Part shown: in pieces, positions 7,775-26,060 of the stretch
How positions within the stretch are numbered: position 1 is the stretch's first letter
Layout of the letters: each line of letters starts with the position of its first letter
Assembly (NCBI RefSeq): GCF_030605225.1
Contig: NZ_JAUWAV010000037.1
Span: 1 to 45,092, forward strand
Reading direction: 5' to 3'
DNA length: 45,092 nt
Source of the DNA: Geoalkalibacter sp.
Lineage (GTDB): Bacteria; Desulfobacterota; Desulfuromonadia; Desulfuromonadales; Geoalkalibacteraceae
Notes under the pieces: model-generated
The model's database searches: none
The model's input: only the letters and a program-made list of their open reading frames with translations
What the model was told of the DNA's origin: nothing
Made by a program: the position numbers and the translations under genes

Positions 7775-7800
7775 CAGTCTCCTCACGGATCAATCAGCAC

Positions 7801-9122: not shown

Positions 9123-9129
9123 AAGCCCC

Positions 9130-9966
9130 TCATTGCCTCCGGTAGACCGTCGGCGCCACCTGCGCCAGGGGCACGTCGAAACCGTGCAGCGATTCGGAAT
9201 GACCGAGAAACAGATAGCCGCCGGGGTCGAGATGGCGGCAGAACTTGCGCATCAGGCGCTCCTGGGTCGGCTTGTCGAAATAGATGATGACGTTGCGGCA
9301 GAAGATCACCTGAAAGCGCTCCTGAAAGCCGAAATCCTCGTCCATGAAATTGATCCGCCCGAAGCGCAGCAGGGCGCGCAGGCTGGAGTCCATGCGCACC
9401 AGCCCGGCCTTGGGGTCGCGGCTGCGCAGCAGGTATTTCTTGCGCAGCGCAGGCGGAATGGGGGCGATGCGCTCCTCGCTGTACACCGCGCGGCGCGCGT
9501 GGTCGAGCACCCGGGTGGAGATGTCGCTGGCGAAGATTTCGCCCTCGAGGGTCGGATCAGGTTGCGCCTCCTGAAATTCACGCAGCACCATGGCCAGGGT
9601 GTAGGGCTCCTCGCCCGTCGAGCAGCCCGCGCTCCAGATTCTGCATTTGCGCTTGTGGCCCGCGCCGCGCCCGTTGCACATCTCGGGCAGCACCACCTGG
9701 GAAAGAAACTCGAAATGACTGGGTTCCCGAAAAAAATCGGTCTTGTTCGTGGTGACCACGTCGATCATGTGCACCAGTTCCTGCTCCTGCCCCGCCGCGC
9801 TGAAGAGAAAATCGCAGTAGTCGCGGTGACTGGCCAGGCCCAGGGCGCGCAGGCGCTTCTGCAGGCGGCCTTCGAGCATGGTGCGCTTGACGTCGGACAT
9901 CTTGATGCCGACGTGCTCGTAGATGAAGCCGCAGAGTCTTTTAAAGTCGTGATCGGTCAGAGCCAT
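9130..9966 (-). CDS. cheR: CheR, chemotaxis receptor methyltransferase
   Basis: S-adenosylmethionine-dependent enzyme that methylates glutamates on MCPs. The 278-residue protein has the N-terminal helical domain (LTDHDFKRLCGFIYEHVGIK; MLEGRLQKRLRALG) and the methyltransferase domain with NKTDFFREPSHFEFL, the SAM loop IWSAGCSTGEEPYTLAM and the late motif VIFCRNVIIYFD. Start ATG 9966 (MALTDHDF) is chosen by family alignment; the upstream extension to 10014 is unlike CheR, and no strong ribosome site is visible. The upstream MCP ends in a sequence fitting the CheR tether motif. Confidence 0.95.
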   Translation of the reverse strand: MALTDHDFKRLCGFIYEHVGIKMSDVKRTMLEGRLQKRLRALGLASHRDYCDFLFSAAGQEQELVHMIDVVTTNKTDFFREPSHFEFLSQVVLPEMCNGRGAGHKRKCRIWSAGCSTGEEPYTLAMVLREFQEAQPDPTLEGEIFASDISTRVLDHARRAVYSEERIAPIPPALRKKYLLRSRDPKAGLVRMDSSLRALLRFGRINFMDEDFGFQERFQVIFCRNVIIYFDKPTQERLMRKFCRHLDPGGYLFLGHSESLHGFDVPLAQVAPTVYRRQ

Positions 9967-10040
9967 GGGCCACACACTTAATACGCGAATGGGACACGGA
10001 TAAAGTCGGATCAAAGCGGATAAAACCTCGAACCTCAGGG

Positions 10041-10135
10041 TACGCGGATGAACGCGGATTTTTCAGGATGAACGCAGATCAAGCCTTTTTGGGTTCAATC
10101 GGCCCTGATCCCGCCGTTTCCGCGTTCATCTGCGT
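10041..10135. repeat. inverted pair of a 'CGCGGATGAACGCGGA' intergenic repeat
   Basis: In the 182-base gap between cheR and the MCP gene, ACGCGGATGAACGCGGA (from 10042) recurs inverted at 10119-10135 with about two mismatches, and a partial third copy (GGATGAACGCAGATC) lies at 10066-10080. The arms could fold into a long hairpin. From memory, very similar short repeats occur between genes in many environmental bacteria. A shorter degenerate AAAGTCGGATCAAAGCGGAT precedes it. Confidence 0.6.
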
Positions 10136-10148
10136 CCCATGATCTGTC

Positions 10149-12212: not shown

Positions 12213-12266
12213 GGTCCGCTCCTGGTTGCAAAAAAGGTTGACCGCGGAATCAAATCACGATTCGTC

Positions 12267-12776
12267 TCAGGCCGTGGCGCGCGCGCCTTCGTCGCCGCCC
12301 GCCACGCTCGCCAGCTCCTCGCCGCTGAATACCCGGTCGATATCGAGAATGATGATGAACTGCTCATCGCGCTTGCCCATGCCCTTGATGAACTCGGTGC
12401 GCAGGCGCGTGCCGATGCGCGGCGCGGGTTCGATCTGCGCCGGGTCGAGGTCGAGCACCTCCTCGACCTGATCGGCGAGAGCGCCGAGCACGGTGGTTTC
12501 ACCCTCCATGCGGATCTCGACGATGATGATGCAGGTATTGACCGTCTGCGGGGTGGGTTCCATGCCGAACTTGACGCGCAGGTCGACCACCGGCACCACC
12601 CCGCCGCGCACGTTGATCACGCCGCGCATGAAATCCGGGGTCTTGGGCACCCGGGTGATGGCCGTGTAGTCGAGCACCTCGCGCACCTTGGCGATGCCCA
12701 GGGCGAACACCTCGCGATCGAGCTTGAAGGTCAGATACTGGTTGGTTTCGTTGACGCCTTCCTCATTCACGCTCAT
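12267..12776 (-). CDS. cheW: CheW, chemotaxis coupling protein
   Basis: A 169-residue adaptor that links MCPs to CheA. The CheW fold is visible throughout: YLTFKLDREVFALGIAKVREVL, FMRGVINVRGGVVPVVDLR, and VEEVLDLDPAQIEPAP, ending with IILDIDRVFS. ATG 12776 is used because AGGGAGG lies directly before it and the family sequence starts just after; an open extension to 12842 has no homology signal. It sits between cheA and an MCP gene in the operon. Confidence 0.95.
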   Translation of the reverse strand: MSVNEEGVNETNQYLTFKLDREVFALGIAKVREVLDYTAITRVPKTPDFMRGVINVRGGVVPVVDLRVKFGMEPTPQTVNTCIIIVEIRMEGETTVLGALADQVEEVLDLDPAQIEPAPRIGTRLRTEFIKGMGKRDEQFIIILDIDRVFSGEELASVAGGDEGARATA

Positions 12777-12844
12777 ACCTCCCTCCGGCGTGGCAGCACC
12801 GGGCAGACGGGTTGACAAGGTTGGATGTCCTTGAACTTTCATTT

Positions 12845-12879
12845 CCCTCTCCCCTTGTGGGAGAGGGCTGGGGAGAGGG
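12845..12879. repeat. hairpin repeat CCCTCTCCC / GGGAGAGGG between cheA and cheW
   Basis: CCCTCTCCC (12845-12853) and GGGAGAGGG (12859-12867) form a perfect nine-base stem around CTTGT, followed by a second copy of the right arm (GGGGAGAGGG, 12870-12879). The alternative right arm would allow two mutually exclusive stems. This type of repeat is widespread between proteobacterial genes; it may tune cheA-to-cheW expression. Confidence 0.65.
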
Positions 12880-12884
12880 CGAGC

Positions 12885-14996
12885 CTATCCCCCGTGAGTC
12901 GCCTGCTTCTCCTCCAGCTCGGCGCCGTGCAGGAGTTGGGGCACGTCGAGGATCAGCGCCACGCTGCCGTCGCCGAGGATGGTGGCGCCGGAGATGCCCT
13001 GCACGTCGCGGTACATGCGCCCCAGGGATTTGATCACCGTCTGGTGCTCGCCGATGACGTGATCGACGACGAAGCCCACGCGCTGGCCGCCCAGGGTGGT
13101 GATGACCACCTGCTCGATGGCGGGGCGCTCACCGGCCATGGCGAACCATTGGCGCAGGGGCAGATAGGGCACCAGCTGATCGCGCACCCGCACCAGGTTG
13201 CGGCCGTGGGCGGCGGCGACCTCCGCGCGGGTGAGCTCGATGCACTCTTCCACCAGGGACAGGGGCAGCACGAAACGATCCGTGCCGATGGCCACCAGCA
13301 GGCTCTCGATGATGGCGAGCGTCAGGGGAATGCGCACCCTAATGCAGGTACCCCGGCCCTTTTCGCTGTGGATCTCGATGGAGCCGCGCAGCGCCTCGAT
13401 GGCGCGGCGCACCACGTCCATGCCCACCCCGCGCCCCGAGACGCTGGTCACGGTCTGGGCGGTGGAGAAGCCGGCGCCGAAAATGAGCTGAAAGAGGTCC
13501 TGATCCGAGGGCTCGTCCTGCTCGGCGAGCAGGCCTTTTTCGATGGCCTTGCGGCGGATGGCGTCGCGGTCGAGTCCCTTGCCGTCGTCGCGAATCTCGA
13601 TCACCACGCTGTCGCCCGAATGAATCGCGGCGAGATGGATGGTGCCCTGGCGCGGCTTGCCCGCCACCTGACGCACCTCGGGCATCTCGATGCCGTGGTC
13701 GATGCTGTTGCGGATGATGTGCACCAGGGGATCGTTGAGGCGCTCGATGACGGTCTTGTCCAGTTCCGTCTCGGCGCCCGAGGTCTCCATCTCGATTTCC
13801 TTGCCCAGTTCGCGGGAAAGGTCGCGCACCAGGCGCTTGAACTTGCTGAAGGTGGTGCCGATGGGCAGCATGCGGATGTTGAGGGTCAGATCGCGCAATT
13901 CCTCCACCAGCCGCTCCACCTCCTCGGCGACGGCGGTGAGGGCCGCATCCTCGCGGCCGGCGGCGGTCTGCGAGAGTCGCGACTGCACGGTGACCAGCTC
14001 ACCGACCAGATCGACGAGCTTGTCGAGGCGCTCGGCGGGCACGCGCAGGCTCGATGCGCCATCGGCCGCGGGTCGATTCTGGCGCTGCGTCTCCAGGGCC
14101 TGCTGCTCGGCCAGGGCGGCGGCCACCTGCCCGGGCTTGACCAGGCCGTCCTCCACCAGCACCTCTCCCAGGCGCTTGCGCTCGCTCAGCACCCGCTCAA
14201 GATCGGCGGCGGCGAGATCGCCGCGCTCGACGAGAATCTCGCCGAGGCGCTTGCGGCAGTCGCCGTCGTCGAGACGGCCGCCGTCGTCGATGGCGCTGAT
14301 GGAGACCTCGCAGTCATCCTCGACGAAGATGAATACGTCGCGGATGGCGTTGGCGTCGGCCGAGGTGGTCAGGATCACATCCCAGTAGAGATAGCAGACT
14401 TCCGGGTGCAGATCGTCGATGGGCGGGATGAGATCGGTCTGGGCCACCACGCGCGCCTCGCCCAACTCGCAGAGCTCGCGCAGCAAGGAGAGGGGATTGG
14501 TGCCGTTGGCGAAGATGTCGTGGGCCGGGCGAAAACGGATGCGCCAGGTGCGCGGGGCGGCGCCTTCGGCCGCAGCCGGAGGGGCCGGCTTGCCCTGGGA
14601 AGTTTCAGCGGCCGGCGCTTGGGGCACGAAGGCGCGAAACGCCGCGACCAGCTGGGCGGTCTGCGAGCGGTCGACCTCCATGTGTCCGCCCGCCGCATCG
14701 AGCATCGCCTTGATCTGGTCGCGCGCCAGCAGGCACAGATCGACCATCTCCTTGGTGACGAGGAGCTCGCCGTTGCGCACCAGATCGAAAACCGTCTCGA
14801 TCTCATGGGTGAAGGCGGACATCTCGTCGAAGCCGAACATGGCTCCCGAACCCTTGATGGTGTGCATGGCGCGAAACACGCGGCCGATGACATCCATGTC
14901 GCGGGGATTGTCCTCGAGTTCCAGCAGGGAGGTTTCCAGCTCGGCGAGCAGTTCGTAAGCCTCTTCGCGAAAGGCGTCGTTGGGTCGTTCCCTCAT
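12885..14996 (-). CDS. cheA: CheA, chemotaxis histidine kinase
   Basis: A 703-residue kinase that phosphorylates receiver proteins in response to MCP signals. P1 (HPt) has phospho-His 45 in FRAMHTIKGSGAMF. Residues about 244-299 hold two back-to-back units (KRLGEILVERGDL and KRLGEVLVEDGLV) of a helical motif not part of the textbook CheA plan. P3 dimerisation follows (ERLDKLVDLVGELVTVQSRL), then the ATPase with the N box HIIRNSIDHGIE and glycine boxes DDGKGLD and GRGVGMDVV, then a CheW-like P5 from about 560. Start ATG 14996 follows GAGGGG. It lies between the STAS gene and cheW. Confidence 0.96.
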   Translation of the reverse strand: MRERPNDAFREEAYELLAELETSLLELEDNPRDMDVIGRVFRAMHTIKGSGAMFGFDEMSAFTHEIETVFDLVRNGELLVTKEMVDLCLLARDQIKAMLDAAGGHMEVDRSQTAQLVAAFRAFVPQAPAAETSQGKPAPPAAAEGAAPRTWRIRFRPAHDIFANGTNPLSLLRELCELGEARVVAQTDLIPPIDDLHPEVCYLYWDVILTTSADANAIRDVFIFVEDDCEVSISAIDDGGRLDDGDCRKRLGEILVERGDLAAADLERVLSERKRLGEVLVEDGLVKPGQVAAALAEQQALETQRQNRPAADGASSLRVPAERLDKLVDLVGELVTVQSRLSQTAAGREDAALTAVAEEVERLVEELRDLTLNIRMLPIGTTFSKFKRLVRDLSRELGKEIEMETSGAETELDKTVIERLNDPLVHIIRNSIDHGIEMPEVRQVAGKPRQGTIHLAAIHSGDSVVIEIRDDGKGLDRDAIRRKAIEKGLLAEQDEPSDQDLFQLIFGAGFSTAQTVTSVSGRGVGMDVVRRAIEALRGSIEIHSEKGRGTCIRVRIPLTLAIIESLLVAIGTDRFVLPLSLVEECIELTRAEVAAAHGRNLVRVRDQLVPYLPLRQWFAMAGERPAIEQVVITTLGGQRVGFVVDHVIGEHQTVIKSLGRMYRDVQGISGATILGDGSVALILDVPQLLHGAELEEKQATHGG

Positions 14997-15033
14997 GGCG
15001 GCAGGCCCCTCGGGGGTTCAGGTTGCATGGTCC

Positions 15034-15390
15034 TTAACACAGCCACAGACAGTTTTTGCGATCGTTGGACAGGGGACAGGCCTCGTGGCGCTGAAAACCG
15101 GCAAGGCGAAGAACCTGCGGCCAGGGACCGGCATCCAGCCCTTTCACCCGCACCTGCCGCTGTCGCGCGACGCCGCCGCGATGCACGGCGCAGAGGGCCT
15201 GCAGACCGGCCACATCGACCTCGCCGACCGCGCTCGCGTCGATCTCCAGCACCTCGCAGGCCTCCAGGGCCGCCATCAAGGCCAGGCGCAATTCGGCGGC
15301 CTCGGCCACGGTCAGGTCGCCGGCCAGGCGCAGGCACCCCTGGCGTCGCCCATCCCTCTCCCCGCTCTCGGCATAGACAAAATCGCTCAC
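15034..15390 (-). CDS. STAS-domain protein in the chemotaxis operon
   Basis: A 118-residue protein with a STAS (anti-sigma antagonist-like) fold: GCLRLAGDLTVAEAAELRLAL, the central strand and loop VLEIDASAVGEVDVAGLQAL, and a C-terminal helix. The residue in the usual phospho-serine position reads S53-A-V-G in IDASAVGEVD, so a phosphorylatable Ser is possible but not certain. The GTG start at 15390 has AGGAG seven bases upstream. STAS proteins are often found beside CheA/CheY in deltaproteobacterial clusters. Its role here is unknown. Confidence 0.85.
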   Translation of the reverse strand: MSDFVYAESGERDGRRQGCLRLAGDLTVAEAAELRLALMAALEACEVLEIDASAVGEVDVAGLQALCAVHRGGVARQRQVRVKGLDAGPWPQVLRLAGFQRHEACPLSNDRKNCLWLC

Positions 15391-15402
15391 GGCGAGACTC
15401 CT

Positions 15403-15768
15403 TTAGCCCAAAACCTTCTTCACCACGCCGATGAGCTTCTCGGGGTCGAAGGGCTTGACCAGCCAACCCGTGGCGCCCGCCGCCTTGCCCTTGGTCTTGA
15501 AGGCCTCGCCCGCCTCGGTGGTGAGCATCAGAATCGGCGTGAACTTGTATTTGGGATGGGCGCGCAGCTTCTGCGTCAGGGTGATGCCGTCCATGCGCGG
15601 CATGTTGAGGTCGGTGATGATCAGATGGAAATTGCCGCTGCCCGCCAGATCGTAGGCCGCCTGACCGTCGGCGGCCTCGGTCACCTGATAGCCCGCCCCC
15701 TTGAGGGTGAAGGACACCATCTGCAGGATGGAGCGGGAATCGTCGACGGCGAGAATCTGCTTGCTCAT
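15403..15768 (-). CDS. cheY: CheY-like chemotaxis response regulator
   Basis: A 121-residue single-domain receiver with all catalytic residues: D9/D10 (AVDDSRS), phospho-Asp D53 (IITDLNMPRMDG), T83 and K105 (GWLVKPFD). It is the canonical-looking CheY of the cluster and the probable substrate of the CheA encoded two genes downstream. Start ATG 15768 has GGAGG eight bases upstream. It sits 12 bases before the STAS gene. Confidence 0.94.
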   Translation of the reverse strand: MSKQILAVDDSRSILQMVSFTLKGAGYQVTEAADGQAAYDLAGSGNFHLIITDLNMPRMDGITLTQKLRAHPKYKFTPILMLTTEAGEAFKTKGKAAGATGWLVKPFDPEKLIGVVKKVLG

Positions 15769-15797
15769 GGTTCAACCCTCCTAGACATTTGTTGCGC

Positions 15798-15848
15798 GTA
15801 GGGGCGACCCGGAGGGTCGCCCAGGGCGAGGCAACGCCTCGCCCCTAC
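15798..15848. repeat. compound hairpin repeat bounded by GTAGGGGCGA and TCGCCCCTAC
   Basis: The 51-base element starts GTAGGGGCGA and ends with its exact reverse complement. Two smaller stems lie inside: GGCGACCC/GGGTCGCC (around 15802-15821) and GGGCGAGGC/GCCTCGCCC. It can therefore fold as one long or two short hairpins. It fills the gap between an MCP gene and cheY. Similar GTAGGGGCGA palindromes are common intergenic repeats in several phyla. Confidence 0.75.
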
Positions 15849-15852
15849 GGCC

Positions 15853-17085
15853 CTAGAACAGTTCGATATCCCCTTCGTCCATGCTCTTTTGCGACACGGG
15901 ATTGTGACTGGCGCGCTCAAGCAGGCGGCTGGCCTCTTCCAGGGCCGCCTTGAATTCGTCGAGGCGCAGCCGGCAGTCGTCGCTGAGGTCCTCGCCGCGC
16001 GCGCGATGATCAAGGGAGAGCACCGCCAGCCCGGTCAGCAGGCTTTCCAGGTTCTCGATGCGGTTGTTGGCCGTGCCGATGACCTGAGTGGCCATGTCCT
16101 GAAACTGCAGGGAGGTCACCGCATGGCGCACCTCGGTGCTGATGCGCTCGGAAGAGGCGGAAATCTCCCGGCCCGATTGTTCCACGCTGCGGTTGAACTC
16201 GCGGGTTTTGTTCATCAGCTCATCCACCCGCTGCTTGGCGCTGCCGGTGACCACCTGATCCTGGGAGGCCATGCGGCCGATGACCTGCTCCACATCGGCC
16301 AGGGCCTGGGAGATGCCCGACACCGACGCCCCGATCTGATCGCTGAAGCGATTGGAACGGATGGAGAGATTGCGCACCTCCTCGGCCACCACGGCGAAGC
16401 CCTTGCCGGCCTGTCCGGCGCGCGCCGCCTCGACGGCGGCGTTGATGGCGAGCAGATTGGTCTGGTCGGCGATTTTCTTCACCTCGCCGAGCAGCCCGAG
16501 AACTTTCTGAAATTGGGCGTTGGTCTCGCCCATGGACTGCACCATGGAGCGCGCCAGGTCGGAGTTGCGCCCGATGGCCTCGGCGAAGGTCTTGAGCACG
16601 CCGTCGATTTCGGCGAGAAAGGTCTCGAAGCTCAGCCCCCCGCCCTGCCCCGCGCCGCCCTTGCCGGCAAGCCCCAGGGCGATCTCCTGCTGGCGGCGGG
16701 TCTGCTCCTCGAGTCCGGTGAAGCTGTTGATCAGCTTCTCGATGGCATCGGCGAGCAGAGTGCGCACCTGGCCGTTCTCGGTCTTGATGTTGGCGAACTG
16801 GCCGTTGAACTGGCGCGCGAGAAACTCAAAGAGAGATTTGGTGCGCTGCGTCAGATCGGCCAGATTTCGGTTGGTTTCCTGCCAGCGCTCGCGCTCGCGC
16901 TGCCGCAGCAGATGCAGAGCCCCGCCGAGCAATCCGCCCCAGACGAGGGCCGTGGCCGCAACCAGGGCGAGGCTCAACCATCCGGCCCCGAGAAACCCCA
17001 GGACCGCGAGTCCCAGCACCGTGAACAGACTCGCGGCAAGCGCCGCGAGAACCACCGGGTCAAACTGTTTCAAGCCTGTCTTCAT
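15853..17085 (-). CDS. methyl-accepting chemotaxis protein without periplasmic domain
   Basis: A 410-residue receptor-like protein. Two hydrophobic segments (about 11-30 and 34-55) follow each other with almost no loop, so there is no external sensor; a helical cytoplasmic region leads into the signalling domain with the tip sequence [20 protein letters not shown] (about 205-225). It ends in GDIELF. ATG 17085 is chosen over the upstream frame because GGGAGGG lies seven bases before it. It is the first gene of the chemotaxis operon and probably senses a cytoplasmic or membrane state. Confidence 0.92.
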
Positions 17086-17313
17086 TCTCGTCCCTCCCTC
17101 GCCCCGCGAGGATCGCATCAAAGAAAGCCGCGCCACGCGGACACACCGTTGCTTCTATTTCTTAACTTAAATTCATTTATAAAGCAACATTTATTTAAAT
17201 TAATTTCATGGCTGATTTTCGCCTTGCCGCCCCTGGGCCTGGGCCCGAAAGACAATCATTTCAGCCGGATGAACCTCGACGTGGGAAGAGAGGAGAATCT
17301 GGGGTGGCGTGAA
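17086..17313. other. AT-rich gap, likely start of chemotaxis operon transcription
   Basis: The 228 bases between the sensor kinase stop and the first chemotaxis gene hold no open frame. About 17155-17212 is strongly AT-rich (TTAACTTAAATTCATTTATA and similar), unlike the rest of the region, and is the natural place for a promoter reading toward 17085. No clear FliA-type or sigma54 element was seen, and no single -35/-10 pair stands out. Confidence 0.4.
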
Positions 17314-19560
17314 TCAGGAGGCCGTGGCGGAGGGCAATTGATCCTCCTGGGCGAGAGGAAGGGTGAAGAACACCGTGGTGCCCTCGCCGAGGGCGCTTTC
17401 GACCCAGACGCGGCCGCCGTGGGCCTCGACGATGTGCTTGACGATGGACATGCCCAAGCCGGTGCCGGCGATGGCGATGTTGGAGGAATCGGCGCGATAG
17501 AACTTCTCGAAGACCCGGACGCTCTGCTCCGGCGACATGCCGATGCCCCAGTCGCGCACCTGGACTTCATAGAAATCGCCGACCACCCGGCCGCTGACCC
17601 GCACGCGCCGCTGCGCGGAAGAATACTTGACGGCGTTGGACAGCAGGTTTTCCATGATCTGCGAACTTTTGCGCCGATCGACGAACAGCCTCGCCGCCGC
17701 TGGTTGCAGATCCACCTCAAACTCAAAGGCGGGATGGTTGAGGCGATAGTCGCGGATCACCGGCAAAAAGACGCTCTCCGGCGCGCAGGCCTCCTCGTTG
17801 AGTTCGAGTTCGCGCCCGGCCTCGATGCGACTCAGGTCGAGAAGATCGTCGACGATGGCGGCCAGGGCATCGGCCTTCTCGAAGATGTAGGTGAGAAACT
17901 CCCGGCGCTGCTCGGGGGCGAAATCGTCGCGGCTGAGCAAGAGCTCCGAAAAACCCAGCACCGTGGCCAGGGGGGTGCGGAATTCATGGGCGACCGTCGA
18001 AATGAACTCGCTCTTCATGCGGTCGATCATGCGCGCCTGGGTGACGTCCTCCATGAGCACCACCACCCCGGAGCTTCCATCCTGCGCGCCGCGAATGGCC
18101 GAAATCCGCGACTCGATGATGCGCCGCGCGCCCTGGGCGTCCAGATGCTCGAAATCGAAACCACCGTCCACCTTCCCCTCGGCCAGCGCCTGGCGCAAGC
18201 CGGCAAGCAGGGTCGAGCCGGCGAAGAGCGTATCAATCGTCTGGCCGCCCGCGACCTCCGCCTGGAGATCGAACATCCGCCGCACCCGCTCGTTGATGAG
18301 CAACACCCGACCCGCCTGATCGATCACCAGCAGTCCGTCGGCCACCGAGCGCAAGATGGCATCGATGCGCTCACCGGCCTGTCGGGCCTCGCGCAGGGCG
18401 TCCTCGAGTTCGGCGGTACGCCGCGCGACGCGCCGCTCCAGTTCATCGCGCGCCTCGCGCAGGTCCTCCTCGACCCGGCGCCGCTCGGCCATTTCATGCT
18501 CCAGATGGTCGTTGGCCTGGCGCGTCAACTCGAATTCATCGACCAGCCGCCCCTGGACCTCGGCCAGTTGGCGCGCCGTGCGCCCGAGCATCACCCAGGA
18601 AAAGACGAAAAGTAAACCGCCGAGGCCCAGGGTCGAACCGGCGCCGATGAGCATCGAGCGATTGAAGACGGCGATTTTGTCCGTGACGTCGAGCATGATC
18701 AGCACATCGCCCACATCGGCGCCGCTCACGTCGGTGAGGGGCAGCAGCCGGCCGCGCAGCCTGCGCTCGCCGATCTCCATGTCGAAGAGCAGCTTGTGAT
18801 GGCTTTGGTGATCGAGATCAAGCGCCCTCTCAAACCCTAGCGGAAGAGCCTTGAGGGTGCCTTCCATCAGCACATGGCCGGGCAACCGGTCCCAGTCGGC
18901 CGCGCGCCCCTGCATCGCCATGCCCTGCTCCCAGCGCGCGCGGTCGAGATGATGCTTTTCCAGCGTGACGGCATACTCGACGCCGACACTCTCTCGTAGA
19001 CGCGCCAGAAAAAGATCGATGTCCTCGCCGGCCTCCAGATAGCCGATCACCTCGCCCGCCGCGCGCCAGGGCAGCACCACGCGCAGGGTGAAGGTGCCCA
19101 GGGGGCCCAGTTCCAAACCCGCCGCCGTGATCTGCCGCGTCCGAGCCTGGCGCAGGGTATCGCGCGAAATGAAGTCGCCGAAGAAATCGGGTTTGTGGAC
19201 CCGCAGAAAATTGTAACCGTCGCGCTGATGAAAATAGAGATGGGAGATGCCCAGGGGCTTGAGCACTTCCTGGAAAAGGGGCAGGGAATATTCCAGCAGC
19301 AGATCGCGCCTTCCGGCGACCATGGCCGATTGCAGATGGGGATCGCGGGCGATGAGCTCGAGCGCCAGGTTCAGCTGCCGGATGCGCTCCTCGCGCAGTT
19401 CCAGGGAGAGCACCTGCACCGCCTCGTAATGCTGGTCGAGGGCGGCATCGACCTCCTTGAGCTTGATCTTGTAGATGCTGAATAAAAAGGTGCCGAGCAG
19501 CATCAGCAGGGTCAGTGTCAGGGGCAGCAGGATGTGTCTGCGGATGCTGTTGACGCTCAT
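17314..19560 (-). CDS. membrane sensor histidine kinase with extracytoplasmic sensor and PAS domain
   Basis: A 748-residue two-component kinase. It has TM1 (about 10-30), a large periplasmic region (31-300) with Cache-like features (YFHQRDGYNFLRVHKPDFFG; GTFTLRVVLPW), TM2 (303-325), a long charged coiled coil (330-400), a PAS domain (about 400-510, ILRSVADGLLVIDQAGRVLL), then HisKA with phospho-His 525 in STVAHEFRTPLA, and an ATPase with ENLLSNAVKYS, DWGIGM and GTGLGMSIVKHIVEAHGG. No partner regulator lies next to it. ATG 19560 has AAGG upstream. A terminator separates it from the cytochrome operon, so it may have its own promoter. Confidence 0.93.
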   Translation of the reverse strand: MSVNSIRRHILLPLTLTLLMLLGTFLFSIYKIKLKEVDAALDQHYEAVQVLSLELREERIRQLNLALELIARDPHLQSAMVAGRRDLLLEYSLPLFQEVLKPLGISHLYFHQRDGYNFLRVHKPDFFGDFISRDTLRQARTRQITAAGLELGPLGTFTLRVVLPWRAAGEVIGYLEAGEDIDLFLARLRESVGVEYAVTLEKHHLDRARWEQGMAMQGRAADWDRLPGHVLMEGTLKALPLGFERALDLDHQSHHKLLFDMEIGERRLRGRLLPLTDVSGADVGDVLIMLDVTDKIAVFNRSMLIGAGSTLGLGGLLFVFSWVMLGRTARQLAEVQGRLVDEFELTRQANDHLEHEMAERRRVEEDLREARDELERRVARRTAELEDALREARQAGERIDAILRSVADGLLVIDQAGRVLLINERVRRMFDLQAEVAGGQTIDTLFAGSTLLAGLRQALAEGKVDGGFDFEHLDAQGARRIIESRISAIRGAQDGSSGVVVLMEDVTQARMIDRMKSEFISTVAHEFRTPLATVLGFSELLLSRDDFAPEQRREFLTYIFEKADALAAIVDDLLDLSRIEAGRELELNEEACAPESVFLPVIRDYRLNHPAFEFEVDLQPAAARLFVDRRKSSQIMENLLSNAVKYSSAQRRVRVSGRVVGDFYEVQVRDWGIGMSPEQSVRVFEKFYRADSSNIAIAGTGLGMSIVKHIVEAHGGRVWVESALGEGTTVFFTLPLAQEDQLPSATAS

Positions 19561-19660: not shown

Positions 19661-19699
19661 AAAAAATCGGGCGGGCCGCCCCTTCGGCAGCCCGCCCTG
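19661..19699 (-). terminator. rho-independent terminator after the cytochrome b gene
   Basis: On the minus strand GGGCGGGC and GCCCGCCC (between 19698 and 19669) pair perfectly around a loop that can extend the stem, and GATTTTTTG follows. It lies about 30 bases after the cytochrome b stop and before the kinase start. Confidence 0.8.
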
Positions 19700-19730: not shown

Positions 19731-20381
19731 TCAATGGGTCTTTTCCGCGTGATGGTCGTCCACCTTCTCCCAGCCCGTCCACATGGGCTTGAAGTAGGCG
19801 AAGAAAGTCTGCCCGAGGGTCGCCAGATACACGTGGGTGAAGAGAAACGCCGTCAGGCCGCAGGCCAGCAGGAAATGCGCGCCCACCACGAACTTCACGC
19901 CGCCCAGGAACAGGACCAGCTGGCGCAGGGGCCCGATGTTGAGCAGCAGCAGTCCCGAGACGATCACCAGCGGCACCAGCACCATCATGATCACCATGTA
20001 GGCCGATTTCTGCATGGGATTGAACTTCGAGTCGGGGGTGGCGTGATGCGGATTGGGCTTGCCCCGGAAGTAGTTGAAGAAATAGAAGCCCGCCTGGCGC
20101 AGCAGCCCGTGCTGGATGTCCTCGCGGGTCGGCACGTAGAGCGCCGCCAGCTTGCGCGCGATCACCAGGTAGTAGATCAGCCACAGGCAGAAGCTGATGG
20201 AGACCACGATGCCTGCCGTGTTGTGCAGCTCGATGGCCGCGCGGTAGCTGCCGAAGATGTTGATCTCGGGATAGCGGATCTGGATGCCGGTCAGGATCAG
20301 GGCGATGAATCCCAGGGCGTTGAGCCAGTGCCAGATGCGGACCGGTGTGGGTTGCAGATAGATGAATTTGCTCTCAGCCAT
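19731..20381 (-). CDS. membrane cytochrome b (Ni/Fe-hydrogenase/thiosulfate reductase cytochrome b-like)
   Basis: A 216-residue integral membrane protein with about four long hydrophobic helices. Likely heme b ligands are H18 (RIWHWLNALGF), H53 (IELHNTAG), H169 (VGAHFL) and H183 (LFTHVYLA), the two-by-two layout of the dihaem cytochrome b561/HydC family. It should pass electrons between the quinone pool and a periplasmic partner, here almost certainly the heptaheme cytochrome encoded four bases upstream. ATG 20381 is preceded by GGGAGG, which overlaps the end of the upstream gene. A terminator follows. Confidence 0.88.
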   Translation of the reverse strand: MAESKFIYLQPTPVRIWHWLNALGFIALILTGIQIRYPEINIFGSYRAAIELHNTAGIVVSISFCLWLIYYLVIARKLAALYVPTREDIQHGLLRQAGFYFFNYFRGKPNPHHATPDSKFNPMQKSAYMVIMMVLVPLVIVSGLLLLNIGPLRQLVLFLGGVKFVVGAHFLLACGLTAFLFTHVYLATLGQTFFAYFKPMWTGWEKVDDHHAEKTH

Positions 20382-20385
20382 GGTA

Positions 20386-21438
20386 TCAATGACCTCCCTG
20401 ACGATTTTTACGGGTAAGGAATCGCATGGTGCCGTGCCCCACGGGCAGCACCAGACCGCCGGCGATGATCATGGCGCCCAGAATGTCCATGACCTTGTTG
20501 CGCGTCGCGCCGACCATGTAGAAGTTGGGCGTGCCGTAGAGGGCATCGAGCGCCGCGCCGCGCTCCACGTCGAGGCGCAGGAACGAGCCGTCATCCTGGG
20601 GAAAGGCCACGTAGCTCACCTGCATGGCGCTCGGACCCGAGGCATGGCAGAAGGTGCAGTCCCAGCGGTTGTCGAGAATCTGGAAGTTGTGACTGACCTG
20701 CTCGGGCGTCATCATGCCCACCAGGTGCAGCCCGCGGAAATCGCGGCTGGTGTTGAAGGCGCGCAGTTCGGCCAGGGACACGTGCCCGTCGTTGTCGGTG
20801 TCGATGAGGACGGTGATGTCCTTTTCGCCGGCCAGCGTCGCCAGTTCGCCGGGACTGAGCAGCTCGAAATCGCCGTAGGCCTTTTTCTGCTTGACCAGGT
20901 ACCAGGTGATGACGATGTTTTCCGAGCCGGTGTGGCAGGTGATGCAGGGCACGGCCTCGATATGCAGGCCCGCCTGCGGCAGCCAGCGGTCATGGCTGTC
21001 CACCACCCGCGCCGTCACGTGGCAGCCGGTGCACATCTGGTTCATGTCGTAGCCGCTGACCTCCGTGGAGGCGCGGGCGCTGTGCGGATTATGGCAGTCG
21101 TTGCACGAAGCCAGACCGGCATGGATGCCGGCGTTGTAGTCCTGCTCCATGTCCGCGTGGCACTCGCTGCAGCTGACCTTGCCCAGCTTGAGCCCGTCGT
21201 CGGGATGCTCGGCGGTGACGTCGGCGTGACAGGCGACGCACCCGAGTTCGGCATGCAGGGTCGTGGCGAATTTGGGACCGTCAACGAACAGAGCATCCCC
21301 CACCATGCCGGCATCGCCATGACACATCAGGCAGTCTTCGGCTTCCATGGCCCACCCGGCCGGCACGGCGACCAGGGCGACAAAGGCCAGGAAGTACATA
21401 ATGAACAGAAAAAACAGATGCTTCGCTTTAATTTTCAC
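20386..21438 (-). CDS. heptaheme c-type cytochrome with EF-hand-like loop and C-terminal membrane anchor
   Basis: A 350-residue exported cytochrome. It has an N-terminal signal/anchor (about 8-30) and seven CXXCH sites at 36, 67, 90, 112, 136, 165 and 261. Between sites six and seven lies a non-heme stretch with an EF-hand-like calcium loop, DTDNDGHVSLAE (213-224). A hydrophobic segment near the C terminus (316-333) would anchor it so that the C terminus is cytoplasmic. The GTG start at 21438 has GGGAGG seven bases upstream. With the cytochrome b it resembles the parts of Geobacter-type inner-membrane quinol:cytochrome c systems, but I cannot match it to a named one. Confidence 0.92.
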   Translation of the reverse strand: MKIKAKHLFFLFIMYFLAFVALVAVPAGWAMEAEDCLMCHGDAGMVGDALFVDGPKFATTLHAELGCVACHADVTAEHPDDGLKLGKVSCSECHADMEQDYNAGIHAGLASCNDCHNPHSARASTEVSGYDMNQMCTGCHVTARVVDSHDRWLPQAGLHIEAVPCITCHTGSENIVITWYLVKQKKAYGDFELLSPGELATLAGEKDITVLIDTDNDGHVSLAELRAFNTSRDFRGLHLVGMMTPEQVSHNFQILDNRWDCTFCHASGPSAMQVSYVAFPQDDGSFLRLDVERGAALDALYGTPNFYMVGATRNKVMDILGAMIIAGGLVLPVGHGTMRFLTRKNRQGGH

Positions 21439-21474
21439 GGCTGATCCTCCCTCGTAGGCCCCTTGGATGCGGTT

Positions 21475-21711
21475 TCAGCGCAACTCGACACGGCGCGAAA
21501 CGCGCTTTTTCTCAAAAGATTCCTCGACCATGCGGCGCAACGCCATGAGCGCCGTGCAGAGCTGCGCCACGACGATGATCCCGCAGTAGAGCAGGAAAAT
21601 GGCGATGACGATCCCCGCGAACCCGTCCATGACCCCCGGCACCGCCGCGGCGATGGTCACCGCGCCCAAAAAGAGTGTAATGGTCAAAAACATCCACGCT
21701 CCCCGTTTCAT
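21475..21711 (-). CDS. small membrane protein, paralogue 3 of 3
   Basis: A 78-residue protein with two hydrophobic helices (about 7-27 and 31-58) and a basic C-terminal tail (RRMVEESFEKKRVSRRVELR). Its second helix, FLLYCGIIVVAQLCTALMAL, matches the pattern shared with the other two small proteins of this operon (F-x3-C/G-x-I-V-x2-Q-L-x2-A/G-L-M). GGGGAGG lies six bases before ATG 21711. It comes directly before the heptaheme cytochrome gene. Function unknown; a membrane subunit or assembly partner of the cytochromes is plausible. Confidence 0.75.
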   Translation of the reverse strand: MKRGAWMFLTITLFLGAVTIAAAVPGVMDGFAGIVIAIFLLYCGIIVVAQLCTALMALRRMVEESFEKKRVSRRVELR

Positions 21712-21786
21712 AGCAACCTCCCCCGTTCGAGTGTCGCACTGGTGGTTACCAGGCCACCTCCTGTCTGCAAGGCTGTCCGCCCCGCC

Positions 21787-22020
21787 TTACTTGTTTTGAA
21801 TCTTTTGCGGCGTGAATTCCTTGTCCCGCGCCACGCTCTTGATGACGCCGAGCATCATCAGCACGGCCGGCATCAGCTGGGCGACCACGATCAGGGCGCA
21901 AAAGCCAAGAAACACCCACACCACGATGCCGCTGCTGTCTTCCCGGGCGCTCGCCGCCAGGGCCGGAGCCGCGCCGGCCAACACCATCATCAGGGCTCCC
22001 ATCACACTCTTCGCTCTCAT
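21787..22020 (-). CDS. small membrane protein, paralogue 2 of 3
   Basis: A 77-residue protein with a signal-like N terminus (about 1-23, ending PALAASA) and one further helix, WVFLGFCALIVVAQLMPAVL, then the short tail KSVARDKEFTPQKIQNK. The helix is clearly related to that of the gene at 22481 (both contain FLGF-x-ALIV and QL-x-P). GGAGG lies five bases before ATG 22020; the longer open frame upstream has no such site. It lies between the pseudo-receiver and the third paralogue. Confidence 0.78.
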   Translation of the reverse strand: MRAKSVMGALMMVLAGAAPALAASAREDSSGIVVWVFLGFCALIVVAQLMPAVLMMLGVIKSVARDKEFTPQKIQNK

Positions 22021-22067
22021 GACATCCTCCTTTGTGGTTGTCGGACCTCCGGTCCGCTCATCACGTT

Positions 22068-22460
22068 CTAATGCTGACGCGCCATGCCGCCGGTATTGGC
22101 GAAGGCGCACTGCACGGCCAGCTTGAGTTCTTCCTTGTCCTCGGCGCTCATCGGCTTGAGGGCGTGATAGAAAATGCCCTCGCTGCGCAGCTTGCGGATC
22201 TGCGGCAGGGACTGCTCGTTGGACACCAGGATGATGGTCAGATGGCGGTTGCACTTTTTGATGATGGGAATCAGCTCCGCCGCGGGAATTTCATCGAATT
22301 CCCCGCTGAGCAGCACCACCTGCGCTTCTTTCTTGAAGGTGTCGAGCAACACCTGCGCCGCCGAATCGGTTTCCACCACCTGATAGCCTGCCTTGGCGAA
22401 GAAATCCGCCAACTGTTTGCGCCCATCCTTGTCCTTGTCGGCAATCAGCAGCACGCCCAT
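22068..22460 (-). CDS. pseudo-receiver protein (receiver domain without phospho-Asp)
   Basis: A 130-residue single receiver-like domain. The first strand and loop (VLLIADKDKDG) keep D8 and D10, the fourth strand ends in S80 (ILVSNE), and K102 is present (LKP), but the position of the phospho-acceptor Asp is S52 (VVLLSGEFDEIP). It should not be phosphorylated in the usual way and may act as a constant-state binding domain. AAGGGG stands before ATG 22460. It sits between two small membrane-protein genes in the cytochrome operon, so its partner may be one of them or the cytochromes rather than a transcription target. Confidence 0.82.
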   Translation of the reverse strand: MGVLLIADKDKDGRKQLADFFAKAGYQVVETDSAAQVLLDTFKKEAQVVLLSGEFDEIPAAELIPIIKKCNRHLTIILVSNEQSLPQIRKLRSEGIFYHALKPMSAEDKEELKLAVQCAFANTGGMARQH

Positions 22461-22480
22461 GGTTTCACCCCTTTCCTTGC

Positions 22481-22753
22481 TCAACCCGCTTGCGCTTTTT
22501 CCCTCTCAGGATGAATGCCCCCCCGGGATCCTTCGCCCAGCTTGGCGCTGCGCGCCTCCTTGCCGAACAGCCCCTTGAGCAGGCTGCCCAGCATGATCAG
22601 CCCCGGGATCAATTGGGTGGCCACGATCAAGGCAAAGAAGCCAAGAAAAATCTTGGTGATCAGGCTGGCTCCGGAAATTTCCTCGCCGGCTGCGGCAAAG
22701 GCCGTTCCCGCTCCCCCCAAAAGCATGAGCGCCGTCATGATCCGATTTTTCAT
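22481..22753 (-). CDS. small membrane protein, paralogue 1 of 3 (first gene of the operon)
   Basis: A 90-residue protein with a signal peptide-like start (MTALMLLGGAGTAFAAAGEE), one membrane helix (ITKIFLGFFALIVATQLIPG, extending to about residue 60), and a basic hydrophilic C-terminal tail. It shares FLGF-x-ALIV-x2-QL-x-P with the gene at 21787. AGGAGG is seven bases before ATG 22753. It is preceded by a good sigma54-type promoter. I do not recognise the family. Confidence 0.78.
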   Translation of the reverse strand: MKNRIMTALMLLGGAGTAFAAAGEEISGASLITKIFLGFFALIVATQLIPGLIMLGSLLKGLFGKEARSAKLGEGSRGGIHPEREKAQAG

Positions 22754-22806
22754 GGCTGACCTCCTTAAAGTCGCAAGCAAACTCCATCGCTCTGACTTTC
22801 TCTGAT

Positions 22807-22823
22807 AGCATCAGCCGTACCAA
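22807..22823 (-). promoter_or_regulatory. sigma54 (RpoN) promoter candidate of the cytochrome operon
   Basis: The minus-strand sequence TTGGTACGGCTGATGCT fits the sigma54 consensus YTGGCACGrNNNTTGCW with two mismatches and keeps the required GG and GC ten bases apart. It lies 54 bases before the start codon of the first gene, giving a leader of about 45 bases. An enhancer-binding activator would be needed; none is encoded close by. Confidence 0.6.
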
Positions 22824-23050
22824 CAATGAAGCGCCCTGGGCGCTTAATCCTAAGCAGCTGTTTTTGTTCGATTATTTCGAGAGCGGAGAGAGCCGCGAGG
22901 CGCTGCCGGGCGAGGTGTTTCGTATAGAAAATTTATGCGGCGCAAGACGTCGGGAGCGCGACAAAGCCTCGCACCGACGAGCCAACCTATTGTTTCTAAT
23001 TGGTTTTTAGAAGAAAAAGCCGAGGTGTATGGAGGAGATATACAGCAGAG
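22824..23050. other. gene-free stretch upstream of the cytochrome operon
   Basis: The 349-base gap 22754-23102 holds the sigma54 site near its left end and a terminator at its right end. Between them no convincing gene is seen; short open frames on both strands lack ribosome sites or sense. A stretch GAAGCGCCCTGGGCGCTTAA (22828-22847) forms a small hairpin. Activator-binding sites for the sigma54 promoter would be expected in this part. Confidence 0.4.
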
Positions 23051-23545: not shown

Positions 23546-23932
23546 CTACTCCTCGGGATTGCGAAACCGAACATTGTACAAGCGGATATTCGTGTCGGCG
23601 GTCATCAGAATAAGCCCCTCGGCCTGGGCCTGCGCGACCAACATGCGGTCAAAGGGATCGCGGTGAAGTGCCGGGAGGCGCCCGGCGAGTTGGCCATGAT
23701 AGAGAGTGATTGGGAGTTTGCTGAAACCCTCATCTTCGACGATGGATTCCATGTCCTCGGGGGCATCCAACTTGCCGAGCGCTTGCTTGATAGAGATCTC
23801 CCAGGTTGTGGCGGCGCTGATGAAAATCTCATTGCGCTGCTCGGAAATGAGTTCCCTGCAACGCGGCCCCAGTTCCGGCGCATCGGCCAACCACCAGAGA
23901 AAAACATGCGTATCGAGTAAAAAGCGCTGCAT
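23546..23932 (-). CDS. PIN-domain toxin (VapC-like)
   Basis: A 128-residue PIN nuclease. The acidic residues of the active site are visible as D7 (LLDTHVFLWWL), E45 (TTWEISIK), D95 (DPFDRMLVAQA) and D113 (TADTNI). Such toxins cleave RNA, often tRNA or rRNA. Its ATG at 23932 overlaps the antitoxin stop by one base (TGATG), so translation is coupled. The LWWLADAPELG region and a Phd-type partner place it in the group often annotated as type II PIN/Phd pairs. All catalytic residues seem intact. Confidence 0.92.
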   Translation of the reverse strand: MQRFLLDTHVFLWWLADAPELGPRCRELISEQRNEIFISAATTWEISIKQALGKLDAPEDMESIVEDEGFSKLPITLYHGQLAGRLPALHRDPFDRMLVAQAQAEGLILMTADTNIRLYNVRFRNPEE

Positions 23933-24165
23933 CAGCCTTCCCCCTCAAAGGCCTTGACGACATCCTCCGGTGTCCGGTCGAAATCATCGGCAATGCGAAT
24001 CCTGCCTTTAAATCGACCAGGCTTGCGGGGGCGACGCCCCTCCCGGTGCGGCAAGAGATCGACGTAGGGTTTTCCCGCCTTGGCAATGACGACAGTCTCT
24101 CCCTCCCAGACCTTTTCCGCCAATGCCGACAGTTTGCTTTTCGCCTCGTGCATATTGACTTTCAT
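23932..24165 (-). CDS. Phd/YefM-family antitoxin
   Basis: A 77-residue antitoxin. The N-terminal DNA-binding and dimer part is typical (MKVNMHEAKSKLSALAEKV then ETVVIAKAGKPYVDLLP). The C-terminal part (residues 45-77) is basic then acidic (DDFDRTPEDVVKAFEGEG) and should wrap the PIN toxin. GGAGG lies five bases before ATG 24165. It is followed directly by the toxin gene and preceded by a perfect 18-base palindrome that is the likely autorepression site. Confidence 0.92.
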   Translation of the reverse strand: MKVNMHEAKSKLSALAEKVWEGETVVIAKAGKPYVDLLPHREGRRPRKPGRFKGRIRIADDFDRTPEDVVKAFEGEG

Positions 24166-24234: not shown

Positions 24235-24477
24235 GAGAAGCTCACTTTCGGAGACAAGTTGATCTCATCACCCTTACTCCCTCACCTTTGCGCCGTCCTT
24301 CCCCGCTGATCTGCACGGCAGGCACCTCCTTTTCCATGTTGCCACGAGAGAGATTCGCCTGCTCACAAAATCTTTTCTCCTGAATTTTATTGGTTTCGGC
24401 CTATTTTATTTTTTTATTGGCTATTGACTATATTCTTGTTTTATAGCTAAATACCTATGAATTCGACAGGAGGCTAT
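24235..24477. promoter_or_regulatory. AT-rich control region upstream of hipBA
   Basis: The 312 bases between the two divergent toxin-antitoxin pairs hold no gene. The right half is much richer in A+T than its surroundings and contains a direct repeat of TTTTATTGG (24385 and 24412 areas), a TTGACT at 24423-24428 and TATAGCTAAAT (24441-24451) as loose promoter parts. No single -35/-10 pair or classical HipB operator could be fixed. Confidence 0.4.
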
Positions 24478-24729
24478 ATGGACCAGAGGATCATTTCAAC
24501 CAAACACCTAGGAGAGGCGCTCCGGGCTGCCAGGAAAAATAAGGGGCTGACCCAACAGCAGGCGGCAAAATCGGTGGGCCTGGATCAGCCTTCGATGTCA
24601 AAGATCGAGCGGGGAGAATCCTATGCGCGCATCGACACGCTCTTCCGGCTATTGGCGGCCCTCGACCTTGAGATGGTTATTCAATCGCGGCAGCACCCGT
24701 TAGACGAGAGCCAAGGAGACCGCTGGTAA
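24478..24729 (+). CDS. hipB: HipB-like antitoxin (Xre-family helix-turn-helix)
   Basis: An 83-residue DNA-binding antitoxin. The Xre helix-turn-helix spans about residues 11-65 (LGEALRAARKNKGLTQQQAA then LDQPSMSKIERGESYARIDT, and LFRLLAALDLEM). The ATG at 24478 has AGGAGG four bases upstream; an earlier ATG at 24457 is less likely. Its stop overlaps the hipA start (TAATG). The family binds HipA and represses the operon. Confidence 0.92.
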   Translation: MDQRIISTKHLGEALRAARKNKGLTQQQAAKSVGLDQPSMSKIERGESYARIDTLFRLLAALDLEMVIQSRQHPLDESQGDRW

Positions 24730-26060
24730 TGGGGCGCAAACGGGTTGCCGCAGAGATGTTCATCTACATGAATGGTCAGAAGATGGGAAGACTGCTCCAG
24801 AGGGCGGCCGGCAAGTTAGAGATGACCTATGCCGAGGAGTGGCTGGGCTCTGAAGCCCGCCGCTCCCTCTCCCTCTCATTGCCGTTGAGCAGCCACAAAC
24901 ATTCGGGCGAGGTGGTCGAGAACTTCTTCGACAACCTGTTGCCGGACAGCCAGCCGATCCGGAACCGCATTCAGGCCCGGTTCGGCGCGAGAACGAACAG
25001 GAGTTTCGATCTCTTATGGCACATCGGCCGGGACTGCGTCGGCGCCCTGCAACTCTTTCCGGAAGATGTGCCTATTGAAATCCGAAGAGTGGACGCGGAG
25101 CCGCTCACGGAGGCGCAGATCGCAGAGACGCTGCGCAACTACAGGACCATGCCGCTAGGCATGAGAGCAGACAGCGAGTTTCGCATCTCCATGGCAGGGG
25201 CACAGGAGAAGACGGCCCTGCTCCGTCAGGATGGGAAGTGGCATCGGCCTCTGGGGGCCACCCCGACCACCCACATCTTCAAGCTGCCGATCGGCCGCAT
25301 CGAGCACAGCAACATGGATCTGAGCGACAGCGTCGAGAATGAGTGGCTCTGCCATCTGATCCTGAAAGCCTACGGAATTCCGGTCGCCGGCGCCGAAATC
25401 GCCACATTCGACAGCGTAAAGGCGTTGGTGGTCAAGCGGTTCGACCGTCGCTGGGCCGAAGATCGTTCCTGGATCATCCGCCTGCCCCAGGAAGACATGT
25501 GTCAAGCCCTGGGCGCGCCGCCCGCCTTGAAATACGAGAGCGATGGCGGGCCCGGTATCCCGAAAATCATGGAACTCCTCTTCGGGTCCAGCGAGGGGCT
25601 TGCCGACAGGCGAACTTTCATGGCCATTCAGGTTCTCTTTTGGCTTCTCGGCGCCATCGACGGCCACGCGAAAAACTTCAGCATCTTCCTGCTTCCGGGG
25701 GGAGGCTTCCGGCTCACCCCCGCCTATGACATCATTTCCGCCTACCCCCTCGTTGCCAAGGGGCACTTGGACCAGGCCAACCTCAGGATGGCGATGGCCA
25801 TCAGGGGCAAGAACCGGCACTATGACTGGGGCAAAATCCTGTATCGTCACTGGTTGGGGACAGCTCAAGCCTGCCGTTTTCCCACAGAAGAGATGGAGGC
25901 CATCATCGGCGACCTACTGGATAGGATGGACGAGGTGATCCAGGCGGTAACGGATCAGCTAACCCCTTCTTTTCCTGCCGATGTCGCGAAACCTATTCTG
26001 GACGGCATGAGGGAGGCGCGTGATCGCCTCATCCGCTCCCGGCTTCAGAAAAGCACCTGA
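24729..26060 (+). CDS. hipA: HipA-family serine/threonine kinase toxin
   Basis: A 443-residue kinase; E. coli HipA inactivates glutamyl-tRNA synthetase and gives persistence. Key residues match: the autophosphorylated Ser of the P loop region is S154 in ISMAGAQEKTALL, the catalytic Asp is D311 in GAIDGHAKNFS with N316, and the metal-binding Asp is D334 in PAYDIIS. The N-terminal part (20-110) is the HipA N domain. It overlaps hipB by one base. Full length and intact, so probably active. The pair sits between a PIN toxin pair and a recombinase remnant at a tRNA gene, a typical island setting. Confidence 0.94.
   Translation: MGRKRVAAEMFIYMNGQKMGRLLQRAAGKLEMTYAEEWLGSEARRSLSLSLPLSSHKHSGEVVENFFDNLLPDSQPIRNRIQARFGARTNRSFDLLWHIGRDCVGALQLFPEDVPIEIRRVDAEPLTEAQIAETLRNYRTMPLGMRADSEFRISMAGAQEKTALLRQDGKWHRPLGATPTTHIFKLPIGRIEHSNMDLSDSVENEWLCHLILKAYGIPVAGAEIATFDSVKALVVKRFDRRWAEDRSWIIRLPQEDMCQALGAPPALKYESDGGPGIPKIMELLFGSSEGLADRRTFMAIQVLFWLLGAIDGHAKNFSIFLLPGGGFRLTPAYDIISAYPLVAKGHLDQANLRMAMAIRGKNRHYDWGKILYRHWLGTAQACRFPTEEMEAIIGDLLDRMDEVIQAVTDQLTPSFPADVAKPILDGMREARDRLIRSRLQKST

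Follow-up and report, generated by a model that had tools for sequence, protein, structure and literature searches.

The window analysed here is a 45,092-nucleotide stretch of Geoalkalibacter sp. DNA (contig NZ_JAUWAV010000037.1, positions 1 to 45,092), in which six minus-strand genes run from 22753 down to 19731 with gaps of 4-75 bases. These are sm1, encoding a small membrane protein; pREC, encoding a pseudo-receiver; two further small-protein genes, sm2 and sm3; and homologues of cbcA and cbcB, encoding a c-type and a b-type cytochrome. As the original prediction, made from the letters alone, had described, this tightly spaced set lies between a sigma54-like promoter and a terminator. Judged by sequence, the last two genes are almost certainly the CbcA/CbcB (Cbc5) pair known from Geobacter.

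The operon and its products

The cbcA homologue (20386-21438, minus strand) has a GTG start and encodes a heptaheme c-type cytochrome of 350 residues with N-terminal and C-terminal hydrophobic segments. The latter, near residues 315-337, is a C-terminal membrane helix, in keeping with the membrane anchor first proposed. Its seven CXXCH motifs show no variation across 18 aligned sequences, and the protein matches a solved cytochrome that also has seven CXXCH motifs (PDB 28pb) at E 1e-102. Of 136 genomes of the order, 66 contain a relative with E <= 1e-20. The cbcB homologue (19731-20381, minus strand) encodes a 216-residue b561/Ni-hydrogenase-type cytochrome b (PF01292, 2.1e-27), and its four candidate heme ligands, His 18, 53, 169 and 183, are invariant in 96/96 aligned CbcB rows, the window's included. 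CbcA loci came from one scan of genome contigs, with the best 80 of 126 relatives used, and loci were selected by the presence of cbcA, pREC or small proteins; a cbcB match adjoins cbcA in 80/80 named loci. According to published sources on G. sulfurreducens, CbcA is GSU0594 (heptaheme) and CbcB is GSU0593 (b561) (PMC7726332), Cbc5 is cbcEDCBA, that is, CbcA, B, C, D and E (PMC11434368, PMC7894505), and CbcBA is reported to be in use near -0.2 V (PMC12307469). A 'response receiver', GSU0596, and the hypothetical protein GSU0597 move together in one expression table (PMC10599522). Since CbcBA is already in print, the enzyme is a new member of a described kind, and the suggestion of an undescribed respiratory complex falls away for the pair.

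The small membrane proteins are encoded on the same strand by sm1 (22481-22753; 90 residues, with a signal-like helix and then a transmembrane helix bearing a conserved F..Q..P), sm2 (21787-22020; 77 residues) and sm3 (21475-21711; 78 residues). They had been taken for three paralogues with a common helix pattern, which is partly correct: BLASTP aligns sm1 with sm2 (E=1e-8) and sm2 with sm3 (E=3e-7), and the FLGF/ALIV/QL-P pattern fits sm1 and sm2, whereas sm1 and sm3 gave no BLASTP alignment and sm3, the furthest of the three from the pattern, reads FLLYCGIIVVAQLCT and fits only in part. In an alignment of 36 members, M1, F37 and Q48 (sm2 numbering) are invariant and P51 is present in at least 90%. 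None of the three matches a Pfam or NCBIfam model above cut-off, and comparison with solved structures gave no clear relative (best E 0.19). With sm2 as the single query, matches were found in 88 of 136 genomes of the order, with up to 17 in one genome. Elsewhere in the window's own genome (L142, G000:C7:1-10000), three further small-protein genes with two sigma54 sites lie at 2314-3662; no cytochrome gene is labelled in that 10 kb.

Between sm1 and sm2, pREC (22068-22460, minus strand) encodes a 130-residue single-domain receiver (Pfam Response_reg, 2.6e-9). Its AlphaFold2 model is a normal (beta-alpha)5 receiver (mean predicted local distance difference test score 88.8), and the nearest solved folds are Spo0F, CheY-like and NtrC-type receivers; a pREC profile found no relative at 1e-12 among the sequences of solved structures. 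The replacement of the phosphoryl-accepting Asp by Ser is borne out: Ser52 occupies the phosphosite at the end of beta-3, and by this criterion the protein is not a phosphorylatable response regulator. Among 110 unique pRECs the phosphosite is Gly, Ser or Ala in 106, and Asp is kept in 33/34 receivers classed outside cassettes in the same loci, the exception (L108) being a cassette-type pREC without a detected small protein beside it. The pRECs form a subfamily of their own and are strongly conserved in a block around GIFYHALKP; they occur in 80 of the 136 genomes from the order (1-4 copies where present) and in 157 of 277 from the class.

Promoter and upstream palindromes

The putative -24/-12 element TGGTACGGCTGATGC (22808-22822, minus strand) lies 69 nucleotides 5' of the sm1 ATG and is the sole match in the window to TGGYAYNNNNNWTGC. 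A bare sigma54 motif is weak evidence, given a shuffle mean of 0.62, and the promoter call therefore rests on conservation: the site is identical in a locus of the same genus (L205) and has one changed spacer base in a locus of the same family (L208), with flanks that have largely diverged. The operon thus carries a conserved element 5' of its first gene; sigma54 control, like the quinol:cytochrome reading of the pair, holds as a prediction. A GC-rich palindrome adjoining the -24 element (22829-22845) was considered as a binding site and dropped, as it is not conserved within the genus. At the other end, the intrinsic terminator (19669-19697, minus strand) consists of a stem of 12 pairs followed by T6. 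Five terminator-like sites in the window are an unremarkable count (shuffle mean 3.6), and that of the operon has the longest stem of the five.

The published sigma54 consensus of G. sulfurreducens is TTGGCACGGTTTTTGCT (PMC2725144). Sites in other loci were scored with up to two mismatches to TGGCAC-N5-TTGC, GG and GC being required, and were found in 88 of 103 cassette upstream regions, as against 35 of 492 control gene upstreams delimited by rough gene starts.

A second conserved upstream feature is a 17-bp palindrome, GTAT-N9-ATAC, that is often paired. In the window, the distal candidate enhancer site GTATATCTCCTCCATAC (23027-23043, minus strand) is exact and is kept in L205 and L208, and the proximal candidate GCATAAATTTTCTATAC (22922-22938, minus strand) has one mismatch; their first bases are 105 nucleotides apart. 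An exact palindrome is present in 50 of 102 cassette upstreams (about 0.3 in all in shuffles), comprising 19/56 of the cbcBA type, 14/21 of an iron-sulfur (FeS)/NrfD type described below and 17/25 others, and at one mismatch the count is 68 of 102 (shuffles about 12). Only 1 of 263 control genes is preceded by an exact copy. Palindrome pairs, defined by a distance of 88-110 bp and no more than one mismatch in the two sites together, number 77 in the 2,163,542 bases analysed and 0 in each of three shuffles. In 56 of these cases a small-protein gene follows the pair within 420 bp; the remaining 21 comprise eight before cbcA without a cassette, four before a pREC with no small protein detected in front, and nine elsewhere. 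The nearest exact palindrome is mostly 83-87, 96-101 or 187-205 nucleotides from the -24 element (68 cases, range 61-218), a spacing that suits a sigma54 enhancer. Two of the nine pairs elsewhere are exact and adjoin 12-heme cytochrome genes (L166 16932-17049, L210 1086-1202), and in L107, L113, L117, L132 and L138 pairs occur without a small-protein gene to account for them.

Distribution of the cassette and its neighbours

Genes in the fetched loci were called with a simple custom script, so that unlabelled neighbours are rough, and the locus sets are mutually related, so that the shares given here are neither genome-wide nor independent rates. The cbcA upstream survey, made with our own profiles, covered the 74 loci that have 2 kb or more of upstream sequence (the window and 73 named loci; seven others were too short). 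A pREC gene lies upstream of cbcA in 46 of these, 44 of them also with two or three small proteins; ten loci have small proteins only, and 18 have neither. A second survey of 19 mostly complete genomes, including the window's own (89 contigs), gave 113 small-protein matches and 34 pRECs, with one genome lacking pREC. By a cross-reading of two listings, with the window's own copy added, 13 of the 34 pRECs are upstream of cbcA-cbcB, nine upstream of a pentaheme/FeS/NrfD-type set, and 12 upstream of neither. The divergent family f7 has the gene order sm-sm-pREC, and in one of its loci (L160, 7179-8585) a sodium:solute symporter gene (PF00474) stands behind the cassette.

The second set encodes a 60-residue one-helix protein, a pentaheme c-type cytochrome, an FeS protein and a polytopic membrane protein, often with the addition of a HAMP/heme sensor and a 165-residue membrane protein. 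In L145 the best models are HmcB (7.1e-118), then HybA, for the FeS protein and HmcC (7.2e-108), then a HybB-type subunit, for the polytopic protein, all below the curated NCBIfam cut-offs; the polytopic counterpart in the window's own genome (L141) matches PF03916 NrfD at 1.9e-12. These matches identify the second complex as an Hmc/Hyb/NrfD-type module. Its polytopic subunit has no solved relative and gave no alignment with the window cytochrome b better than E 4.5, and the multiheme subunits of the two complexes align only around their CXXCH motifs (E 0.014). As published, Cbc3 consists of pentaheme CbcX, FeS protein CbcV and CbcW (PMC7894505), and the second complex is perhaps Cbc3 (cbcVWX), a fit made on composition and heme count rather than on Cbc3 sequences. 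Each of the 19 unique pRECs located ahead of the second set is preceded by a small protein, and in 17 cases another follows it. Type labels vary with the distance limit: L150 is 'other' in one listing and FeS/NrfD type in another. In the window's own genome, L141 (G000:C7:54000-73000) contains a second cassette, which stands ahead of FeS/NrfD-type genes, and also the genome's third pREC, unflanked and close to NtrC-type genes.

Judged from the sequences, it is certain that one cassette is shared before two unrelated complexes. A pREC tree of 104 of the 110 unique rows (130 columns, many forks unresolved; the six rows left out have neither complex and a contig end within 2.5 kb) needs three changes between the two complex types, and 0 of 200 bootstrap trees need only one; its well-supported branches force only one. 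With the tree in this state, repeated jumping of the cassette between the complexes is only weakly suggested. In 15 of the 104 rows, pREC runs in-frame into a small-protein domain (four changes on the tree). These fusions are found before cbcA in Geomonas/Citrifermentans-type rows, before the second complex or away from both complexes in family f8, and in the lone row L090. The four fused proteins that were inspected keep two hydrophobic segments C-terminal to the receiver; if the receiver is cytoplasmic, this layout would place the small protein's C-terminal tail in the cytoplasm too. Such natural fusions are our main reason to suppose a joint function for pREC and the small proteins.

Small proteins also occur apart from the cassette. 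Distance rules gave 34 groups without a close pREC or cbcA, at least 21 of which lie in stretches without a labelled cbcA, FeS or NrfD-type gene; among the others, some are a few kb from cbcBA and that of L154 is inside an FeS/NrfD operon. A sigma54 site at up to two mismatches precedes 26 of the 34, and the palindrome is found in 21 exactly and in 30 with one mismatch allowed. A restriction of the small proteins to cytochrome operons is thereby ruled out. The check proposed with the original prediction, whether small proteins and pREC always travel with the b/c pair, came out negative in this search across genomes: small proteins occur without the cytochromes and cbcBA without them. With these 34 groups and the 18 cbcA loci that have neither component, the single-system idea fails by the refuting condition first set for it, and a single six-subunit complex is rejected by the independent occurrence of small proteins and cbcBA.

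Of 57 pRECs (L141-L214), 31 have an NtrC-type regulator gene, often accompanied by a kinase gene, no more than 3.5 kb away; none was found within that distance of the other 26, some of which are on short contigs. The sigma54-activator family is matched 34 times in the window's own genome, and three of these matches are on contig C7, close to two other pRECs. CXXCH motifs are present in 16 of 43 proteins labelled as histidine kinases by similarity, mostly near residues 111-135, and in 23 of the 27 HAMP proteins that have no kinase domain, which suggests heme-based sensing. Genes such as L145 11834-12667 encode HAMP/single-cache membrane proteins of the latter kind, possibly orphan heme sensors and perhaps CbcD-like. 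Downstream of the window operon, past the terminator, a gene at 17314-19560 (minus strand) encodes a 748-residue dCache/PAS histidine kinase; genomes of the same genus have a similar kinase gene in the same position, and it is a possible partner of the missing activator. Translations read by eye point to a PIN-like/antitoxin-like pair (23546-24165, minus strand) and a HipBA-like pair (24457-26060, plus strand) adjoining the operon, and to a NiFe-hydrogenase-like cluster (910-4813, minus strand) and a large chemotaxis-type cluster (6692-17136, minus strand).

Interpretation and comparison with known systems

We read the window operon as that of a CbcBA (Cbc5-type) menaquinol:cytochrome c oxidoreductase with a portable sigma54-driven accessory module, and put the probability of this statement, the adaptor step discussed below excepted, at about 0.75; that sm-pREC-sm is such a portable module is, taken separately, very probable. 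At the level of sequence, the identity of the pair, the gene order, the sigma54 site, the paired palindromes, the inactive receiver site and the recurring sm-pREC-sm cassette are established; in the reading that we favour, the module would hold a pseudo-receiver at the membrane. The 'built-in regulation' first proposed is not built into one system, and it survives in another form, as a portable module of two unrelated complexes with one enhancer pattern in many loci.

Several observations weigh against this reading. Orthology to CbcBA rests on published annotation, on PDB 28pb and on relatives in Geobacter sp. AOG1 (L070) and Geobacter argillaceus (L083), not on the GSU0593/GSU0594 sequences. 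Four of the 110 pRECs align with Asp at the phosphosite, and the similarity of pREC to its best-scoring curated families, which are NtrC-type regulators, is weak and far below cut-offs. Twelve of 34 pRECs lie beside neither complex, six of these in the f7 family. No palindrome was found even at one mismatch in 30 of 56 cbcBA-type upstreams, and the other full cassette of the window's own genome (L141, contig C7) is without palindromes, an observation unfavourable to a simple scheme with one regulator in this genus. In addition, the window yielded no NtrC-type activator carrying a sigma54 domain; its matches fell only in receiver-type or other signalling frames.

The mechanism that we consider most likely begins with an NtrC-type activator, which would bind the paired GTAT-N9-ATAC sites and turn on sigma54 transcription. 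In many relatives the gene for this activator would be the one adjoining the operon with its sensor kinase (sometimes with a heme motif in the sensor part); here, with none beside the operon and 34 matches in the genome, it is assumed to act from elsewhere. The cassette would be co-produced with the CbcBA enzyme, and the small proteins would be inner-membrane proteins whose tail faces the cytoplasm and which hold the pseudo-receiver at that membrane. As pREC resembles NtrC-type receivers and lacks the phosphoryl-accepting Asp, its likeliest job is that of an adaptor. It might exert feedback on the kinase and its activator, or else on how the quinol oxidoreductase encoded next to it is assembled or how active it is. 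We nevertheless regard this adaptor step as doubtful. The catalytic core would not require the cassette.

Tight gene order and the presence of three small proteins beside a membrane complex could instead mean that the small proteins belong to the oxidoreductase as structural subunits, comparable to the small subunits of some oxidases and transporters, with pREC as a cytoplasmic peripheral subunit. This is improbable given the 18 of 74 cbcA loci that have neither component, the 21 or more solitary groups in stretches without a cbcA, FeS or NrfD-type label, and the same cassette ahead of an unrelated complex. Solitary small-protein genes share both promoter (26/34) and enhancer (30/34 at up to one mismatch), as would be expected if selection acted on co-expression only, the small proteins being general envelope proteins of a sigma54 regulon that lead operons by chance and pREC a receiver in decay. 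Decay would not be expected to leave the GIFYHALKP block conserved or pREC in 157 of 277 genomes of the class, and we consider this explanation quite improbable.

A purely titrating device, in which pREC binds a kinase or pairs with the NtrC-type activator and so damps it, the small proteins serving only to keep pREC near a membrane kinase, is another alternative. It agrees with the NtrC-type character of the best curated families (though far below cut-offs), with the regulator near 31 of 57 pRECs and with the natural pREC-sm fusions; the 26 pRECs with no regulator found within 3.5 kb, some on short contigs, and the window, where none was found, speak against it, and we judge it rather unlikely. 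Returning to the accessory-module reading, a broader form of it is tentative: a single enhancer layout, in which two GTAT-N9-ATAC palindromes accompany a sigma54 promoter, may unite a regulon. Within it, membrane-tethered pseudo-receivers would be interchangeable partners of unrelated quinol:cytochrome c oxidoreductases and, like a plug-in, would adjust which respiratory exit the cell builds or keeps active when the acceptor potential drops; heme-bearing kinases would serve as the redox sensors.

The new part appears to be the cassette of small proteins and pREC together with its enhancer pattern. In the open-licence full-text literature searched, no description was found of the sm-pREC-sm module, of an enhancer pattern common to two unrelated complexes or of the GTAT-N9-ATAC site; the primary CbcBA paper is outside that scope. 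That paper is by Joshi et al. (2021). The sigma54-dependent activator of CbcBA is reportedly called BccR, and a search for this name with Geobacter and cytochrome gave no match. The enzyme exports electrons for low-energy metal respiration, and the cassette is a little-noticed add-on to it. How Geobacter-type bacteria select among several inner-membrane quinol oxidases as the acceptor potential shifts is a live question, for which a cassette and enhancer motif common to two such enzymes offer a concrete regulatory handle that predicts co-regulated genes. An unannotated small-protein family and a pseudo-receiver subfamily are added as well.

Among known systems, Cbc5 of G. sulfurreducens is alike in its heptaheme c-type and b-type subunits and, in the published annotation, has the response receiver GSU0596 and hypothetical protein GSU0597 close by locus tag. 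In contrast to full Cbc5 (cbcEDCBA), the window has cbcB followed by the terminator and a separate kinase gene, with no CbcD-like HAMP or CbcE-like protein found in it: there was no match at 1e-3 to the relatives' HAMP/heme sensor or 165-residue protein, taken as CbcD- and CbcE-like, and the 12-heme cbcC was not separately searched. The window operon has three small proteins. Cbc3 (cbcVWX) and the Hmc/HybAB-type modules resemble the second complex, which lies outside the window, in their pentaheme c-type, FeS and polytopic subunits. The cassettes also resemble NtrC-type sigma54 two-component systems with paired upstream sites: they have a sigma54 site, with palindromes mostly 83-101 or 187-205 nucleotides 5' of it; an NtrC-type gene is next door in many relatives, whereas none adjoins the window operon. 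Finally, atypical (pseudo-)receivers are a known class with a receiver fold that lacks the phosphoryl-accepting Asp, as in pREC. In contrast to these, pREC is encoded between, or fused to, small membrane proteins.

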